Part shown: positions 4,976 through 64,000 of the stretch, in pieces | How positions within the stretch are numbered: the stretch's first letter is position 1 | Layout: each line of letters begins with the position of its first letter | NCBI GenBank assembly: GCA_016284045.1 | Contig: JAEEOB010000106.1 | Span: 1-64,000 of the forward strand | Origin: Bacteroidaceae bacterium | Lineage (GTDB): Bacteria; Bacteroidota; Bacteroidia; Bacteroidales; Bacteroidaceae | Length of the DNA stretch: 64,000 bases | Reading direction: 5' to 3' | Position numbers and translations under genes: made by a program | Notes under the pieces: model-generated | Databases searched by the model: none | What the model was told of the DNA's origin: nothing | Seen by the model: the letters and a program-made list of their open reading frames with translations, nothing else

Positions 4976-5183
4976 GGTATTTTTGTGAATAGTGAAAAGT
5001 GAATAGTGGAAAGTGTAGTAACTTAGTGTATAAGATTTATTTGCTTAATGAAGTTTTTAATAGTTTGTTTGAATCTACTTTAATTGTGTCCTTCATCAGA
5101 TGTAATAACTGTCTTCTCGTCTTCTTAGATTATTAACTATCCAAATAGCTAAATAAATCGTAAATAATTTAATCGTAAATTCT

Positions 5184-9871: not shown

Positions 9872-10100
9872 ATACATATATTTGAATAATGATTAATTTT
9901 TAGTTTTTAGTTTTTAGTTTTTTGTGGATTTCTTTGTTTTCCGGGTATCAGCGGGGAGCACTGGAGGTTCGCTGGCATCATCCAAGGTTTTTATGGGGGC
10001 ACCATAACTTGAAAAATCTTACATCTTAATTTTGGGTAAATCAAACAGCGAAAATAAATCTTACATCTTAAATAATTAAATTTTTAAATATTTTAATTTC

Positions 10101-26744: not shown

Positions 26745-29700
26745 TTAATAGGTGAAGTCCTTGTCAATTATCCATCTTATGCTTTCTGCTTGCTTCTGAG
26801 CCATAAAATTGATGACGGCTACGATATCGGAGATATCCACTTTCCCGTCCTCGTTGACATCGGCATTGGCTCTCAGTGTGGTGCCGGCGATATGGTTGAT
26901 GATGGCTACGATATCACTGATGTTGATGACACCGTCTTCATTGACATCGCCAGGTAAGCCCGGTTGTGACTTGAGGGTCAGCGTCACATTGTCGAACCCG
27001 ATGATTTTCTCTTTGCCGTCGGAGTTGTGTACGGCTTCAAGACGGATGGTGGTAGAAGCCTTTCCGTCGCTGCTGAAGGTGAGCGATGTGGGCTGCCATG
27101 CCTGCTGGTTTTCCGCAGCGGGAGAGTTGCTTACGACAGCCCCCCCCTCTGTCTCGGCGCTGACTATGGCCTTTCCGCCCGAACCGCTGCTCCAGATGTC
27201 TGCAGTCAGTTCGTATTCACCCTCTTCCAGCAGCAGCTCCTGGGAGAGGGTGAGTGTGGGGACCCCCCAGTTCTGACGAATCCAGTAAGTGTGATTTCCA
27301 TGCTCCGCCGGTTTGTCGAGCACCGCGAAGAAACGGTCGAAATAGAGGTCGCCGCTCTGCAGGGCAGTCAGGTCGTTGTTGTTGGGCTCGCTGCGGCTCA
27401 CGGTCCATCCCTCGGGCACATAGATGGCGCGGTCGCTGCTCACGCCCGAGCCGCTCTGTACGCTGTAGCCCGATTCGAAATCACCGTTCAGCAGGGCTGA
27501 TGGCAGTTCAGCAGGCTGGTAGCCGATATCCTGAAGACCGCATATCTCCTCACGAGTGAGGCAGGTGCTGTAGAGCATGAATCCGGAGATGGTGCCGCTG
27601 AAATCAACATTATCCCCGTTGTAGGAGGTGTCCCACCACTGTGTGCGGCCTATGTAGTTACGGCTGTCAATGGCGTTCTCCACGAGCATGTATGCCTCGT
27701 TGGTGTTTGCCGTACCGCTCACGTCCTCGATGCCGTCGATATAGATTTTGGTGGTGTGGGTGGATGCGTTGTAGGTAACAGCCAGCTTGTATTCCTTGCC
27801 CGTCTGCAGCGTGGTGGCACCGCTCACCATCGTGGTGGTGCCTCCGTTGTATTTGATGCCGGCGGCAAGAGGGGAGAGACGGAGAAACACGCTGTTCTCC
27901 TTGTTGCAGCCGAAATCGTAGGCACGGGGCTGATGGGAGAGTGATGCTGCATTCACGGTCAGCAGGAAAGTATATGACCTTAGCCCTGTGAGCAGTCCTT
28001 CGGGAGCGGTTACGTAAGTGTTTGAAGCAAAGCCGTTGGCGGTGTTTTTCGTCATGTCAAGCACGTTTTTGCGCTCATATAGTATGTTTTGGGTGATGTC
28101 ACGTTTCAGACCGGTCACAGTGTAGGATCGTGTGCTGTTTCCGACGCGTGCGGTCAGTTCCACGGCCTTGTCCTCGGTGAGTGGCATCAGCGCACCGTCG
28201 CTTGTGATGACGCTCTCGTCGGAGGATGTCCAGCTCACTTCTTTTCCCAGGGATGTCTTGGGCAATACCAGGTCGGTGCGGGTGGAGGATGGCAGATTGA
28301 TGGTCTCAATAGCTTTCTGGTCGAGGATGGCTGAGATGTTTTCTTGCATGTGGTCCGTCATCGTCTTGACTGTCTGTGGAGAAGCGCAGGCATAGAAATC
28401 GGATTCATTAATAATCTCGTGGTTGAAATCCGCTCCGTATGCGTTGGCTGTTCCTCCTTCCAGGTTTTCCACATCGATTACCTGGTCAAGCAGTCCGTTG
28501 CGGTAGAGGCTGAGCGTGTGGCCGTCGTAGGTCATGCTCAGCACCCACGTGGTCAGTTTGGTGGGGTGGTTGTCACCATTTGTCCCGCCGCTTTTCGTCG
28601 CCCAGTCGTCTGAGGTGTAGAGGCGGTTCTGGCTTTTGTATTCCTTGCCGTCGATGGTTACTACCGGGTAGCCGTCGGTGCCGAGACTATAGACAAGTGG
28701 CTTTTCATCGCCAATTTGGAACAACGGACCATAGTATTTGTCGTGGTTCATGGCGAATGCGATGTTCAATGTCTTGTTTGGGGCAAGGCAGATGCAGTCG
28801 GTGCGTGGATTCTCATCATCGGATTGCTCCGCAGTGAATGGTTCTTTCCATTCGTAATCACAACGGATGCCGGTAGGATAGCCTTTCGGATAGTTGGTGT
28901 TGACCATCCAGTAGTAATAATCACCGTTCATCCAGGTAAGCCGCATCTGGCTGTTTTGGGAGCCTGGCATGACAAACGGACGGATGTTGTTCTTCTCTGA
29001 GCCGCTGGTCACCTGCTCCGAGCTGACCACTTTCCCCTCGTCGTCGAGGGTGTATTTCCAGATTTCATACACACCGTCTTTGTTGAAAACACCGCTCTTG
29101 GTCGGGATGCTGAGGTAAAGGTCGTTCACGTTGTCGGGGTCGATGGCCATACCTCCGCTGTAGCACCGTTCCGTCTGGTTCCAGTTCAGGTGGAAGGCAT
29201 GTCCGCCGTTGGCAATCCGTGTGTTGCGCCATGCGGTGCCGGTCCAGCGGGAGTACCAATAGACATGAGTGGTCTTTGCCTGGTCGATATGCGGATATGC
29301 GATGACGGGATGCTCGTCAGCGTCGAGGCTGATTTGCCACACCCAGTTGCGTGTGTCGGCGGTCTTGTCAACAACGGTCATCGGATAGCTGTTGGCATAG
29401 CTGTCGCTTTTCGACACATTGAACGGGCCGCTGCTGATGGTGCTGAGCTGCTTGCCCTGTATGTCGCGTAGGACAGGACCGTTACCCTTGTTGATGTCGA
29501 TGACGTTGAAATAAAGCCAGTCGGGCATCTCGTTGTCGGGGTGGCCTGTGGTGTAGGAGAGGTAGATCTTGTCCTTGCCGTTGCTTTGGTATTTGGCATA
29601 GGGGCGGGCACCGGTGGATTGCACAATCTGCTTAGGACCGAAGTCAAACTTACAGTTGCCGTCAGCGTCGGGCATGGTCAGCCGCGCGATGGTGGGATGC

Positions 29701-30218
29701 CAGTTGATCCCTCGCCAGCACAGGTAGATATGGTCGGGGTCATCGCTCAGGATAAACGGCGAGGGGTAGGTGGTGTTGTTGGCTGTGCTCAGGCTCTTCT
29801 CCTCGCCCAATCGGCTGATGTCGCCTGGCACGGTGGATATCCGGTACCAGATCTTCGGCTCGTCGGTGTGGCGGGTGTAGAAAATCATCACCCGCTCGTC
29901 GGGCAGCACGATAAAGGTGGGGTTGTTGTGGTCGTCGGGCTGGAAATAGGAGCGCACCAGCACGTCGGTCTTCCGTTGTTTCTTCCAGTCGTACTGAGTG
30001 GCTTTCACGTTGCCGTGAACGTCGATGTAGCCGATATAGGTGCTGTTGATGCTGCCGTCGGCATTCTCATAATGGATGGCGCGAGGGTCGGCAAACCAGC
30101 ACCAGGCACCCTCGTCTGTCACCTCGTTACTGCTGAATTGGCTGTTCTGGCTCTGTGCCTGCATCTCTGTGAGACAACCGAAAACCAGCAGAGCTATCAT
30201 AAATAATCTGTTCATCAT
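26745..30218 (-). CDS. Secreted BNR-4 repeat protein with LamG-like and carbohydrate-binding-like regions and C-terminal dockerin-like repeat
   Basis: Signal peptide MMNRLFMIALLVFGCLTEMQAQ; WCWFADPRAIHY...; LamG-like KIYIDGIEDVSGTANTNEAYM..NYIGRTQWWD; C-terminal GDVNEDGVINISDIVAIINHIAG..DVNEDGKVDISDIVAVINFMA. Confidence 0.8.
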   Translation of the reverse strand: MMNRLFMIALLVFGCLTEMQAQSQNSQFSSNEVTDEGAWCWFADPRAIHYENADGSINSTYIGYIDVHGNVKATQYDWKKQRKTDVLVRSYFQPDDHNNPTFIVLPDERVMIFYTRHTDEPKIWYRISTVPGDISRLGEEKSLSTANNTTYPSPFILSDDPDHIYLCWRGINWHPTIARLTMPDADGNCKFDFGPKQIVQSTGARPYAKYQSNGKDKIYLSYTTGHPDNEMPDWLYFNVIDINKGNGPVLRDIQGKQLSTISSGPFNVSKSDSYANSYPMTVVDKTADTRNWVWQISLDADEHPVIAYPHIDQAKTTHVYWYSRWTGTAWRNTRIANGGHAFHLNWNQTERCYSGGMAIDPDNVNDLYLSIPTKSGVFNKDGVYEIWKYTLDDEGKVVSSEQVTSGSEKNNIRPFVMPGSQNSQMRLTWMNGDYYYWMVNTNYPKGYPTGIRCDYEWKEPFTAEQSDDENPRTDCICLAPNKTLNIAFAMNHDKYYGPLFQIGDEKPLVYSLGTDGYPVVTIDGKEYKSQNRLYTSDDWATKSGGTNGDNHPTKLTTWVLSMTYDGHTLSLYRNGLLDQVIDVENLEGGTANAYGADFNHEIINESDFYACASPQTVKTMTDHMQENISAILDQKAIETINLPSSTRTDLVLPKTSLGKEVSWTSSDESVITSDGALMPLTEDKAVELTARVGNSTRSYTVTGLKRDITQNILYERKNVLDMTKNTANGFASNTYVTAPEGLLTGLRSYTFLLTVNAASLSHQPRAYDFGCNKENSVFLRLSPLAAGIKYNGGTTTMVSGATTLQTGKEYKLAVTYNASTHTTKIYIDGIEDVSGTANTNEAYMLVENAIDSRNYIGRTQWWDTSYNGDNVDFSGTISGFMLYSTCLTREEICGLQDIGYQPAELPSALLNGDFESGYSVQSGSGVSSDRAIYVPEGWTVSRSEPNNNDLTALQSGDLYFDRFFAVLDKPAEHGNHTYWIRQNWGVPTLTLSQELLLEEGEYELTADIWSSGSGGKAIVSAETEGGAVVSNSPAAENQQAWQPTSLTFSSDGKASTTIRLEAVHNSDGKEKIIGFDNVTLTLKSQPGLPGDVNEDGVINISDIVAIINHIAGTTLRANADVNEDGKVDISDIVAVINFMAQKQAESIRWIIDKDFTY

Positions 30219-30240: not shown

Positions 30241-30326
30241 GGAGTTAAAATTTCATTTGGAGTTATAATTCCTGTCAGGAATTGGAGTTAATCCTTCGGA
30301 TGGAGTTAACGAGCCTGCGGCTCGTG
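30241..30326. repeat. GGAGTTAA/mini-hairpin element, copy 1
   Basis: Four GGAGTT(A/T)(A/T) heads interleaved with AATTCCTG-T-CAGGAATT, ATCC-TTC-GGAT and CGAGCC-TGC-GGCTCG. Confidence 0.75.
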
Positions 30327-30472
30327 GATGCTAGTTTTGCCAATGATAATACAATATCCATTTACTTGCTATTGCAAATTTAGTTGAAAAAATCCAAATA
30401 ACACGCTTTATTTAAAAGTTTTAATTAGGTTGATTTATTAAAGAGTTAAAAATTTCTTGGTTGAGCGGTATA

Positions 30473-33927: not shown

Positions 33928-33966
33928 GGTGTGATTCTTTTGGGGGGGGTGATAGGTTTTAGGCTT

Positions 33967-34071
33967 ACTAGGTTTACTAGGTTAACTAGGCTTACTAGGT
34001 TTACTAGGTTAACTAGGCTTACTAGGTTAACTAGGCTTACTAGTTTTACTAGGTTAACTAGGCTTACTAGG
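33967..34071. repeat. 9-bp-period array ACTAGG(TTT/TTA/CTT), 12 units with partial 27-bp higher-order period
   Basis: actaggttt actaggtta actaggctt actaggttt actaggtta actaggctt actaggtta actaggctt actagtttt actaggtta actaggctt actaggg. Confidence 0.95.
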
Positions 34072-34110
34072 GATTTTTTGGGGGGTAGGTTGTTTAGGGA
34101 TGACGAAAAT

Positions 34111-34152
34111 TCATCATTCTTCATTCATCATTCTTCATTCATCATTCTTCAT
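34111..34152. repeat. Three perfect 14-bp tandem copies (tcatcattcttcat) spanning the stop codon of the acyltransferase gene
   Basis: Units 34111-34124, 34125-34138, 34139-34152 are identical. Confidence 0.95.
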
Positions 34153-34867
34153 TTTTTTCCAGCTTGCTGTGGATGATGTCCCATGTGTCCTGCATGAACT
34201 TCTTGGTGGGGTGCTGCCGATAGACTTCTGTAGGGATAACATCGTGGACAAAAAGTCGGAGTGTGCCGTGACTGACAGACTTCGCTTTGCGGCTGAATAT
34301 CTTGAAGGAGCCGTTTATAGTCATGGGCACGATTGGTAGCCCAATCTCGTTGGAGAGCATGAAGGCTCCCCGCTTGAACTCTCCCATCTCCCCGTCGAAA
34401 GTGCGGGTGCCCTCAGGGAATATCACCATCGACATACCACCCTGCAGTGTCTTACGTGACTGTTGTACTGCCTTCTGTATGCCGCTGCGTGTGTCATCAA
34501 CAAAAATCTGGCCAGACACCTTGCACGCCAGCCCCACAAACGGAATCTTACGCAGGTATTCCTTCATCATCCATTTGAAGTTGTGACCAAGATATCCGTA
34601 AATCAGGAAGATGTCGAAATATCCCTGATGGTTAGCCAGAAACACATACGACTGCTTCTTCGACAGTTTCTCTCTGCCCTCTACCTTGATTCCGAGCAGG
34701 AACAACCGGCAGGTGAAGCGCGACCACCACTTGCACATGAAATAATCCACGATGTCTTTGTCGCCCAGAAGGGCAGCGAACATAATGATCAGCGCTGTGA
34801 TAATGGTGATTATCACAAATAGTGGTAGCGCGATACAAAAAGAATACAGTTTATATAAGAAATTCAT
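34142..34867 (-). CDS. 1-acyl-sn-glycerol-3-phosphate acyltransferase (PlsC family)
   Basis: FLANHQGYFDIFLIYGYL, MVIFPEGTRTFDGEMGEFKRGAFMLSNEIGLPIVPMTI. Confidence 0.92.
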   Translation of the reverse strand: MNFLYKLYSFCIALPLFVIITIITALIIMFAALLGDKDIVDYFMCKWWSRFTCRLFLLGIKVEGREKLSKKQSYVFLANHQGYFDIFLIYGYLGHNFKWMMKEYLRKIPFVGLACKVSGQIFVDDTRSGIQKAVQQSRKTLQGGMSMVIFPEGTRTFDGEMGEFKRGAFMLSNEIGLPIVPMTINGSFKIFSRKAKSVSHGTLRLFVHDVIPTEVYRQHPTKKFMQDTWDIIHSKLEKNEE

Positions 34868-34870
34868 TCG

Positions 34871-34973
34871 GGAGCTAAAATTAAATTTGGAGTTAATTCT
34901 ACGAATGGGAGTTAATCCCTGCGGGATGGAGTTAAAGTCCTTCGGAAATGGAGTTAAATACGGAATTGGAGTG
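34871..34973. repeat. GGAGTTAA/mini-hairpin element, copy 2
   Basis: Six GGAG(T/C)-type heads interleaved with ATTC-TAC-GAAT, ATCCC-TGC-GGGAT and TCC-TTC-GGA. Confidence 0.75.
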
Positions 34974-34976
34974 CCT

Positions 34977-36257
34977 TTATTTCAGTTTTTTCAGCGTAAT
35001 GATGTCAAGCTCAGGCCATGCACCGAAGCGGAAAGGGAGCATGATGTTTCCCACGCCGTCAGTGACATTCAGCACCTGAAAGCCTTCTGTATAGACACCT
35101 GACCATTCGCGGTATTTATGTTGGATAGGCGACCATCCAAAGATTTTGAACTGACCGGCATGGGTGTGTCCCGCTAGCGTGAGGTCGATGTTTGTCTCAG
35201 GGATGATGTCTCGTCGCCAATAGGTGGGGTCGTGTGTGAGCAGTATGCTGAAAGTATGTGGGGGAGGGGCCACGAGGCTGTCCTCGCTCTTTCTCTGTTC
35301 CAAGCCTGTCAGTCCTTCTGCCATTTTGTGGATGTCACCAAGGGCCGGCCATGGGGGCATTCCGTCGTTTTCCGAGCCAAGCAGTGCGATGGAGTCGTTG
35401 CCACGACGAAGCACTATATTCTCGTTAAGTAGCAGATGCCAGCCGTATGAACGCTCTTTAAACTTGATGAGCTCCATGTCGCGTTTCTTTTCTGCCTCGC
35501 TCGTGAAATGCAGATACATGTCATAGTCGTGGTTGCCCAGCACGCTGTAAACCCCGTCAGGAGCATGGAGCTTGTTGAGCACCTGTTCAAAGCCCTGCAG
35601 TTCTGCAGACTCGTAGTTCACGATATCACCCGTAAACACTACCATGTCGCAGTGCTGACGGTTGATGAGATCCACAATCGTACTGACATCTCTCTGATGA
35701 CCATCGGCAAACGTACCGATATGCAGGTCTGAGAAATGCAGGATACGGTAGCCATCGAACGAGTCAGGCAGCGACTCGAAATAAATTTCCTGCTGATTAA
35801 CTTGATAACGGTTACGTCCCCAGAAATAACCATATAGGATGATGAACGAAGAGCAAAGAGCGAAAGCCATGGCAAATAACCGTATATTGCGCCGAAGAAC
35901 TTTACCCTGTTGCTCTTTTCTTTCCACATCTTCTTCAGTGTATTCATGGTCGGGTTTCAGACGGGCTTTCAGCCTCCCGCAGCTGACTCCTATGGCATCG
36001 AAGATGGTAAAGAGCATTTTAGGAGATGTGACAGTGAGGAATACAATCATCAGCGTGCCGACCATCGGCTGATGTGGGGCGCGTAAGTCGTCGTGAACCA
36101 AAACGACGATGAGGTAAGTCAGCAGGAGAAGCGACGGCAGGAAATAAAGGGCGCGCTTCCACCACACTGAAGTCCATTTGCGAATATACACATAATATAT
36201 ATAGATGTCGGGGACAATCAGCAATATGAATAAAACAAAGAGTACTCGCTGAAGCAT
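34977..36257 (-). CDS. Membrane-anchored metallophosphoesterase
   Basis: ILHFSDLHIGTF, VVFTGDIVNYES, SVLGNHDYDMY, LAGHTHAGQF. Confidence 0.92.
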   Translation of the reverse strand: MLQRVLFVLFILLIVPDIYIYYVYIRKWTSVWWKRALYFLPSLLLLTYLIVVLVHDDLRAPHQPMVGTLMIVFLTVTSPKMLFTIFDAIGVSCGRLKARLKPDHEYTEEDVERKEQQGKVLRRNIRLFAMAFALCSSFIILYGYFWGRNRYQVNQQEIYFESLPDSFDGYRILHFSDLHIGTFADGHQRDVSTIVDLINRQHCDMVVFTGDIVNYESAELQGFEQVLNKLHAPDGVYSVLGNHDYDMYLHFTSEAEKKRDMELIKFKERSYGWHLLLNENIVLRRGNDSIALLGSENDGMPPWPALGDIHKMAEGLTGLEQRKSEDSLVAPPPHTFSILLTHDPTYWRRDIIPETNIDLTLAGHTHAGQFKIFGWSPIQHKYREWSGVYTEGFQVLNVTDGVGNIMLPFRFGAWPELDIITLKKLK

Positions 36258-43900: not shown

Positions 43901-44003
43901 CCAGAATCTCCTATAACCTCTTATAATCTCCTATAACCTCTTATAATCTCCTATAATTTCCTATAATCTCCTATAATCTCTTATAATTTCCTATAACCTC
44001 TTA
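43901..44003. repeat. 10-bp-period array (C/T)TATAAYYTC, about 10 units
   Basis: ctataacctc ttataatctc ctataacctc ttataatctc ctataatttc ctataatctc ctataatctc ttataatttc ctataacctc. Confidence 0.95.
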
Positions 44004-48473: not shown

Positions 48474-48490
48474 TTCCACAATTTATAAAA

Positions 48491-48563
48491 TCTATAATAT
48501 CCTATATTATCCTATATATTCCTATATCATCCTATAAATTCCTATATCATCCTATAAATTCCT
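48491..48563. repeat. 10-bp-period CCTATANNAT/T array
   Basis: tctataatat cctatattat cctatatatt cctatatcat cctataaatt cctatatcat cctataaatt cct. Confidence 0.95.
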
Positions 48564-60954: not shown

Positions 60955-61058
60955 CAGGAAACCTAGGAAACCCTAGGAACTCCTAGGAAACCCTGGGAAT
61001 CCCTAGGAAAACCTAGTAATCCTAGTAATCCTAGGAAAACTAGAAAATCCTAGAAATC
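60955..61058. repeat. 10-then-9-bp-period CCTAGGAAA array
   Basis: ccaggaaa cctaggaaac cctaggaact cctaggaaac cctgggaatc cctaggaaaa cctagtaat cctagtaat cctaggaaaa ctagaaaat cctagaaat. Confidence 0.93.
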
Positions 61059-61146
61059 AAAACTCCTGGCAAAAACCTCCTCCCTCCCAACTTTTCCCTT
61101 TATCCTTTACACTTTACACTTTACATTTTACCCTATAAAAGAAACC

Positions 61147-63039: not shown

Positions 63040-63365
63040 CGAAGCTGTTTCAATTCCCGCTGTTTTTCCATCAGCAGTTTCTTGTACTTTGTCTTCGGTT
63101 TAACTAACCGAATGCAGCCCGTCAGTCCTCGGCTGGTTTTGTGGTCGTACCGACCGCACATTAGACTGGCGAAGCATAGTCAATCATTTGCAAACAATAC
63201 TTTTTTCTTTCATCCTTCTTCGGGCATCTTTTATAGTTTATAGTTTTTTGTAGCGGATGGCTTTTGTTTTTCATCCGTATTCGGACATCAAGCCCTCGAC
63301 GGCTGACACGGTCGGGACGACCAAGTCCCCAGCCGAACCCGATTGGGGTTTCGAACTAATTCTGT

Positions 63366-63405
63366 AGCCACAGGCTCGTTAACTCCCATTCGAAGAATTA
63401 ACTCC
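63366..63405. repeat. GGAGTTAA/mini-hairpin element, copy 3 (head on minus strand)
   Basis: Minus strand: GGAGTTAA-ATTC-TTC-GAAT-GGGAGTTAA-CG-AGCC-TGT-GGCT. Confidence 0.7.
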
Positions 63406-63440: not shown

Positions 63441-64000
63441 ATGTTTGAGATTGATCCAAAAACCACAAGACGTGCCCGCGATTTTGAGCTGTGGATAAAA
63501 TCGCCGATGCCGATGGTCACGCTGACGAAGACCTTCGATGTCAGCAGATTGAGAAAAGCCGCAAAAAGGCAAGGCATCCGTTTCACTACGCTGATGTGCT
63601 GGTGTATTGGCAAAGCGGCAAGCGGCATCCCTGAGTTTTTTATGCTTCCGGTCGGCGAGAAGCTGATGGGGTACGAACGCCTCGCTGTCAATGTTGTTGT
63701 CGAAACGGCTGATGGTGGTATCGCCACATGCGACATCCCGTTTTCCGGCAGTCTCAGCCAGTTTCAAGCCGACTATGCCAGACTGACACGCCAGGCACAC
63801 GACAGCGGCGAGCTGTTTAGCCTGGGCGACGACTATGCCATCATCGGCACCTCTGCCCTGACCAACTGCGAGATTGACTCCTTTGTGAATCAGTATTCTG
63901 GCATCTGGAACAACCCGTTCCTGATGTGGGGAAAATACCGCCGCAAGTTATTCAAGACCACTTTGCCCGTATCTTTCCAGTTCCACCACGCCCAGATGGA
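63441..64000 (+). CDS. Chloramphenicol acetyltransferase-like acyltransferase, truncated by window edge
   Basis: MFEIDPKTTRRARDFELWIKSPMPMVTLTKTFDVSRL...; FQFHHAQMD matches the CAT active-site motif HHxxxDG. Confidence 0.85.
   Translation, partial: MFEIDPKTTRRARDFELWIKSPMPMVTLTKTFDVSRLRKAAKRQGIRFTTLMCWCIGKAASGIPEFFMLPVGEKLMGYERLAVNVVVETADGGIATCDIPFSGSLSQFQADYARLTRQAHDSGELFSLGDDYAIIGTSALTNCEIDSFVNQYSGIWNNPFLMWGKYRRKLFKTTLPVSFQFHHAQM

Follow-up and report, generated by a model that had tools for sequence, protein, structure and literature searches.

What are the short repeats that alternate with small hairpins upstream of a BNR/dockerin gene in a Bacteroidaceae genome, and how did they get there? 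The array that raises the question (copy 1, 30241..30309, + strand) lies in a 64,000-nucleotide stretch of contig JAEEOB010000106.1 (assembly GCA_016284045.1, positions 1 to 64,000), the whole of which we call the window, and consists of four GGAGTTAA-type heads (starting at 30241, 30259, 30284, and 30302) with three palindromic head-to-head spacers. An earlier interpretation made from the letters alone (the sequence-only reading) had noted four heads in about 70 bp, and had suggested either a Bacteroidales analogue of repetitive extragenic palindromes (REPs), possibly mobilised by a REP-associated tyrosine transposase (RAYT), or a structural element of a 5′ leader. The positions are borne out. 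The array belongs to a repeat family dispersed among the genes of gut Bacteroidales, with tight linkage and co-variation to one clade of PF05635 proteins. Probably, such arrays are gene-less copies of an arm repeat that belongs to a small selfish element bearing a PF05635 gene.

In copy 1, GGAGTTAA occupies 30241-30248, 30284-30291, and 30302-30309, and the variant GGAGTTAT occupies 30259-30266. The three perfect palindromes are AATTCCT-GTC-AGGAATT, ATCC-TTC-GGAT, and CGAGCC-TGC-GGCTCG, as described before, and a fourth that had been overlooked, AAAT-TTC-ATTT, lies in the interval between heads 1 and 2. Folded as single-stranded DNA (ssDNA), 30241-30326 gives precisely these four hairpins (-13.1 kcal/mol, z = -3.7). 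The window contains ten occurrences of GGAGTTAA versus 1.2 expected, nine of them within three arrays. The genome assembly (3.37 Mb in 243 contigs, completeness 78.6%) contains 98 GGAGTTAA head pairs, whereas the reversed pattern is found 0 times forward and once in reverse. A stem of at least 4 is present in 45% of 136 head-to-head spacers, compared with 12% in shuffles, and a stem of at least 5 in 27%, compared with 3%; the excess of head-hairpin combinations that the sequence-only reading proposed to check is thus real. Most of the loops have the sequence TTC or TGC (86 of the 136 spacers), which read GAA or GCA on the opposite strand; GNA-type triloops give very stable DNA mini-hairpins. 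In line with the earlier claim that heads are conserved while stems vary, the stems differ but remain complementary, and their register is fixed for each length class. The same stem types recur across arrays (AAT-TTC-ATT in 12, ATTTCT-TTC-AGAAAT in 7), so array copies are not independent covariation events. Because hairpin bricks are both reused and tandemly duplicated, the latter clearly in three loci (L020, L069, and L080), the covariation is attributable to copying, possibly template-switch correction, as much as to selection.

Nearly all arrays are intergenic (642 kb examined, with crude open reading frame calls). The outer GGAGTTAA end lies 0-17 nt from a gene edge in 35 of the 66 arrays with two neighbouring genes (2000 null runs average 10.4 and never exceed 22); the opposite end does so in 2 arrays only. 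The GGAGTTAA end is directed toward start codons in 52 arrays and toward stop codons in 17. Its placement at gene edges matches that of the ends of complete PF05635 elements.

These complete elements are found in related genomes. The open reading frame between inverted arrays in the longer elements of genomes G191 and G242 is PF05635 (E 3e-37 and 1.7e-38), the 23S rRNA intervening-sequence protein, an S23/Avd-like four-helix bundle; its relatives include 2gsc and 2rld, proteins of solved structure. Inverted GGAGTTAA / TTAACTCC arms surround PF05635 genes in G242, G191, G141, G204, G177, G195, G230 (three times), and G139. PF05635 loci were collected from a 12-genome scan and a partly overlapping 300-genome scan, and 54 of them are scorable; the counts include L264 and L274, where the link to PF05635 had been spotted by eye before testing. 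The best bracketing inverted repeat at these loci has a median score of 46.5 and reaches at least 40 in 38 of 54, compared with a median of 19.5 and 0 of 10 at ten acyltransferase control loci. Among open reading frames of array-rich loci that were not selected for PF05635, 0 of 606 have at least two inverted heads on each side. In addition, gene-less and gene-bearing copies have identical ends (GGAGTTAAGCCGATAGT in G242, GGAGTTAAGACA in G191).

The arms are short tandem repeats, and other PF05635 clades carry other ones, for example GACAAGTT, TTAGACGTTAGA, AAGTAGTC, GGTGAAAA, and GAAGAATGAAG. The GGAGTT-type proteins, from five host genera, form a single clade of 12 (support 0.986), comprising eleven GGAGTTAA-bracketed loci and a truncated copy of the present genome (L294, C65:3912-4094), which sits between variant and typical heads. 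Repeat type requires 2 Fitch steps on the PF05635 tree versus at least 7 in 2000 shuffles, and protein identity correlates with shared repeat 6-mers (Mantel r = 0.42, with no more than 0.147 in any of 2000 permutations). Several genomes hold at least two protein-repeat pairs of different clades, and therefore the linkage is not due to host ancestry alone. Another PF05635 gene of this genome, L280, was considered as GGAGTTAA-bracketed and dropped: the left match is inside a coding gene, and the real brackets are TAGTTTATAG repeats.

Of 350 genomes, 119 contain head pairs, which span 15 of the 30 sampled genera of the family and are dense in some species and absent from sister species. Heads are followed by [AC]CGATA[ACGT]T in 13 of 19 genomes, spanning 8 genera. 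Presence of the repeat or element at orthologous sites is lineage-specific. Copy 2 of the window (34871..34957, + strand) has five heads with hairpins and occupies most of the 109-nt gap between its upstream neighbour, a metallophosphoesterase gene (34977..36257, - strand), and its downstream neighbour, a PF01553 acyltransferase gene (34142..34867, - strand); it is missing at this gene pair in 11 relatives of the same genus. A second junction, between genes that we take to be etfA and acd by recognition of their proteins, without a family search, was compared across two genera (30 genomes). The gap measures 1-7 nt in ten genomes, and in five the genes read as overlapping. Nine carry a PF05635 element at the junction, seven of the GGAGTTAA type (500-525 nt) and two of an AGTAGTC type (457 nt), and in one a gap of 37 nt contains GGAGTTAACTCCGCTAACTCC without a gene. 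The remainder have another insertion (four genomes) or a 48-nt gap (one genome). Complete elements start a few nucleotides past a stop codon and finish 7-18 nt ahead of the next start codon, and the gene-less arrays of the present genome occupy the same gene edges. The AGTAGTC-type elements (L340 and L341, in G113 and G316) share the etfA-acd junction with the GGAGTTAA-type elements of other species, so the site has been reused.

We therefore favour, with a probability of roughly 0.68, the reading that the arrays are gene-less dispersed copies of the inverted-arm repeat from a small selfish element bearing PF05635. Complete elements have the order [GGAGTTAA]n - gene - [TTAACTCC]n and lie between one stop codon and the next start codon, and every PF05635 clade is accompanied by its own short repeat. 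The protein may recognise its repeat and cause or maintain its spread. What it binds would probably be the repeat folded back on itself as RNA or ssDNA, with hairpins separating the heads; such a substrate is suggested by the fold-back arms, the hairpins, and the resemblance to Avd. Recognition would spread or maintain gene-bearing and gene-less copies alike, and the arrays would afterwards grow by tandem duplication. Some copies in this genome are additionally carried within a miniature inverted-repeat transposable element (MITE) with terminal inverted repeats (TIRs) and target duplications, presumably dependent on a separate transposase.

Several observations weigh against this account. For the matching clade, the present genome yields a single PF05635 gene, and this is truncated, covering 61 of 106 positions (in an assembly that is 78.6% complete), and PF05635 is not found in the incomplete assemblies of array-rich G326 and G079. 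The hairpin bricks are prominent in this genome and rarer in the arms of gene-bearing elements. From their co-variation it follows that repeat and protein are carried along together, but not that either acts on the other. Finally, target duplications are established for MITE-embedded copies and not for complete PF05635 elements, and thus at least two modes of mobility may be mixed.

The last point bears on the alternative that survives best, although we consider it unlikely, namely that the arrays are subterminal repeats of an ordinary non-autonomous DNA transposon moved by a DDE transposase, with PF05635 as passenger cargo. The hallmarks of a MITE hold for a subset of copies. In this genome and G326, a subset of arrays is enclosed by the TIRs TTCAAGTTTC[GT]GA / TTCAACTTTCG[CG]A with target duplications of 7-9 bp (7-8 bp for copies of this genome), for example TAACATAA, TATTCTAA, and TAAATAA, and TTATTTA at the MITE-embedded copy C72:85513-85684. 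Duplications of at least 6 bp are present in 10 of 17 elements versus 1.1% of mismatched flank pairs. Copy 1 shares the MITE core: its terminal core (30310..30350, + strand), the hairpin CGAGCC-TGC-GGCTCG followed by TGGATGCTAGTTTTGCCAATGATAAT, closely matches that of the MITE-embedded copies of this genome, and the close alignment runs from the last head to about 30350. The left TIR is lacking, and no target duplication is seen on reading the flanks of copy 1. One MITE (L068) contains a 12-mer minisatellite, which also speaks for this alternative. However, only a minority of arrays keep TIRs, and the arrays at gene edges are without them. The repeat changes with the PF05635 clade: other clades have different ones. 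No transposase is found between TTCAAGTTTC-type TIRs in the sequence searched; nor does the MITE have a match in the plasmids and phages searched. This genome (G000) also harbours many copies of a second family of MITEs with the same TIR (TTCAAGTTTCGGATGTTCAATCAACAAAAAA..), among them L214, L217, L222, L226, L228, and others.

The proposal of a 5′ leader corresponds to a selected cis-acting RNA in which hairpins and UUAACUCC linkers before start codons control translation or stability, and we regard it as improbable. Its positional part fits: copy 1 is 22 nt away from the start codon of the BNR_4/Laminin_G_3/dockerin gene (26745..30218, - strand), TTAACTCC is sense-oriented toward the start codon in most arrays, it ends 9-17 nt short of it in 26 of 52, and the stems keep their complementarity. 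The function is unsupported. About a quarter of arrays (the 17 noted above) face a stop codon instead, with the sense reversed. The RNA fold of the putative copy 1 leader is little better than that of shuffles (z = -1.4), and the promoter box TAnnTTTG is not enriched upstream of arrays (8 of 37 versus 6 of 37 in the control). Furthermore, relatives do without copy 2, and the genes that neighbour arrays are unrelated to each other. An Rfam scan of the window returns a tRNA only. Base pairing in trans, between GGAGUUAA past stop codons and UUAACUCC ahead of start codons, was considered as a notion only.

A neutral minisatellite that grew by slippage without a protein partner, its palindromes made by quasi-palindrome template switching, is very unlikely. 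The tandemly duplicated and reused bricks described above are what it predicts, and slippage probably accounts for array growth. But an identical 8-mer is present in 15 of 30 sampled genera, and both CGATA[GC]T and one PF05635 clade are linked with it; the linkage of protein and repeat contradicts slippage as the only process.

The weakest explanation takes the arrays for REPs moved by a RAYT (Y1 HUH) transposase, GGAG being the head tetranucleotide. It is largely refuted and was rejected. A GGAG-type head does adjoin hairpins, and the genome possesses a RAYT-like gene, but the REP flanking this gene is a different one (GGAGAGGTAGGCAGGACC..GTCCTGC), and GGAGTTAA heads bracket neither the gene nor any of 22 Y1_Tnp loci (0 of 22, from 15 array-rich genomes among 25 further ones searched), several of which carry REPs of their own. 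The gene (L040; locus G000:C26:4822-8088, gene C26:6322-6588) is the single Y1/RAYT-like gene of the genome, scoring below the cut-off for NF047646 and above it for PF01797. No Y1 gene is detectable in array-rich G204, G195, G340, G297, G141, and G111. Instead of a GT(A/G)G head beside a GC-rich palindrome, the arrays have GGAGTTAA heads and mostly AT-rich stems. One copy of the REP of L040 falls within its reading frame.

The more general analogy with REPs was right in that the family is dispersed and has a conserved head beside variable self-complementary stems. As in RAYT/REP systems, a gene is bracketed by its own inverted repeat, repeat and protein co-vary, gene-less copies are many, and heads lie beside hairpins (PMC2817692). 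In contrast, the protein is a PF05635 four-helix bundle and not a Y1 HUH transposase, the heads are 7-10-bp tandem units, and there is no GTAG/GTGG head. CGTC-tagged REPs (PMC3733652) are likewise palindromic repeats without a transposase, and the present core reads ATCGTCCA before the hairpin on the opposite strand; but CGTC is not conserved here, other genomes having GCCGATA and GACAACA, and the stems and loops are different. BrickBuilt of Porphyromonas gingivalis (PMC4596501) is also an intergenic Bacteroidales MITE that encloses a tandem array of short units. Its printed ISPg1/ISPg9-like TIRs differ from those found here, as do its units, compared by description alone, and the accessible part of that report describes no protein partner.

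The closest counterpart is the intervening sequence (IVS) of 23S rRNA with its S23p open reading frame, known from Coxiella burnetii and others, the function and origin of which are still unclear more than 25 years after its discovery (PMC4990558). It too is a small selfish element with stem-capable terminal inverted repeats around an S23/PF05635 gene, of sporadic distribution and unexplained mobility and function (PMC4990558). The gene-bearing elements described here have such a gene within terminal inverted repeats, and the window copies are gene-less. The IVS sits in helix 9, 25, or 45 of 23S rRNA (PMC4990558), whereas the present elements lie at junctions between protein genes and not in 23S rRNA. 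Unlike those of the IVS, the present arms consist of short tandem repeats in arrays, and there are dozens of dispersed copies that have no gene. PF05635 also resembles Avd, an accessory protein of diversity-generating retroelements that is essential to retrohoming (PMC10053308), and a large CRISPR survey lists the 23S rRNA intervening-sequence protein among domains accompanying adaptation modules (PMC10910872). We infer that the elements are of the S23/IVS kind and operate like a REP system. In the open-access literature on GGAGTTAA, TTAACTCC, Prevotella repeats, MITEs, and S23 proteins, neither the repeat nor such a pairing of PF05635 and repeat is described. A bolder proposal, which we put forward only tentatively and hold to be rather doubtful, is that S23/Avd-like proteins, each specific to its repeat, make up an undescribed selfish class of protein plus repeat, free-living relatives of the 23S IVS, which would fill the stop-start junctions of Bacteroidales operons via an RNA or single-strand intermediate and be the source of much intergenic short tandem repeat.

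S23-related genes outside rRNA, with clade-specific repeats around them, provide a testable lead on how IVS elements move. Since there are clade-specific repeats, empty and filled sites, and gene-less copies, binding specificity and movement are directly testable in culturable Bacteroides relatives. Short tandem repeats between Bacteroidales genes, several other families of the window among them, may also find an explanation in the favoured reading.

The third array of the window (copy 3, 63365..63405, - strand) has two heads, a TTC-TTC-GAA hairpin, and the CGAGCCTGTGGCT core hairpin; a CatA-like acetyltransferase gene follows 35 nt downstream. This adjoining gene (63441-64000) encodes a CatA-like O-acetyltransferase of family 2 (NF040637). 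Elsewhere in the genome, at L076:13608-13892 (G000:C67), two occurrences of the same short array cassette, separated by about 260 bp and flanked by TTTACGATTTA repeats, lie between a pair of genes. The window holds further 7-10-bp tandem arrays at 33960-34071, 34109-34153, 2170-2201, 4985-5015, 9893-9922, 43905-44003, 48484-48563, 60956-61058, and 61090-61131, with the units TAGGTTTAC, ATTCATC, TAGTTTA, GTGAAAA, TTAGTTT, AATCTCCTAT, TATAAAATCC, AGGAAATCCT, and ACTTTAC, and some of these look like the repeats that bracket other PF05635 clades.
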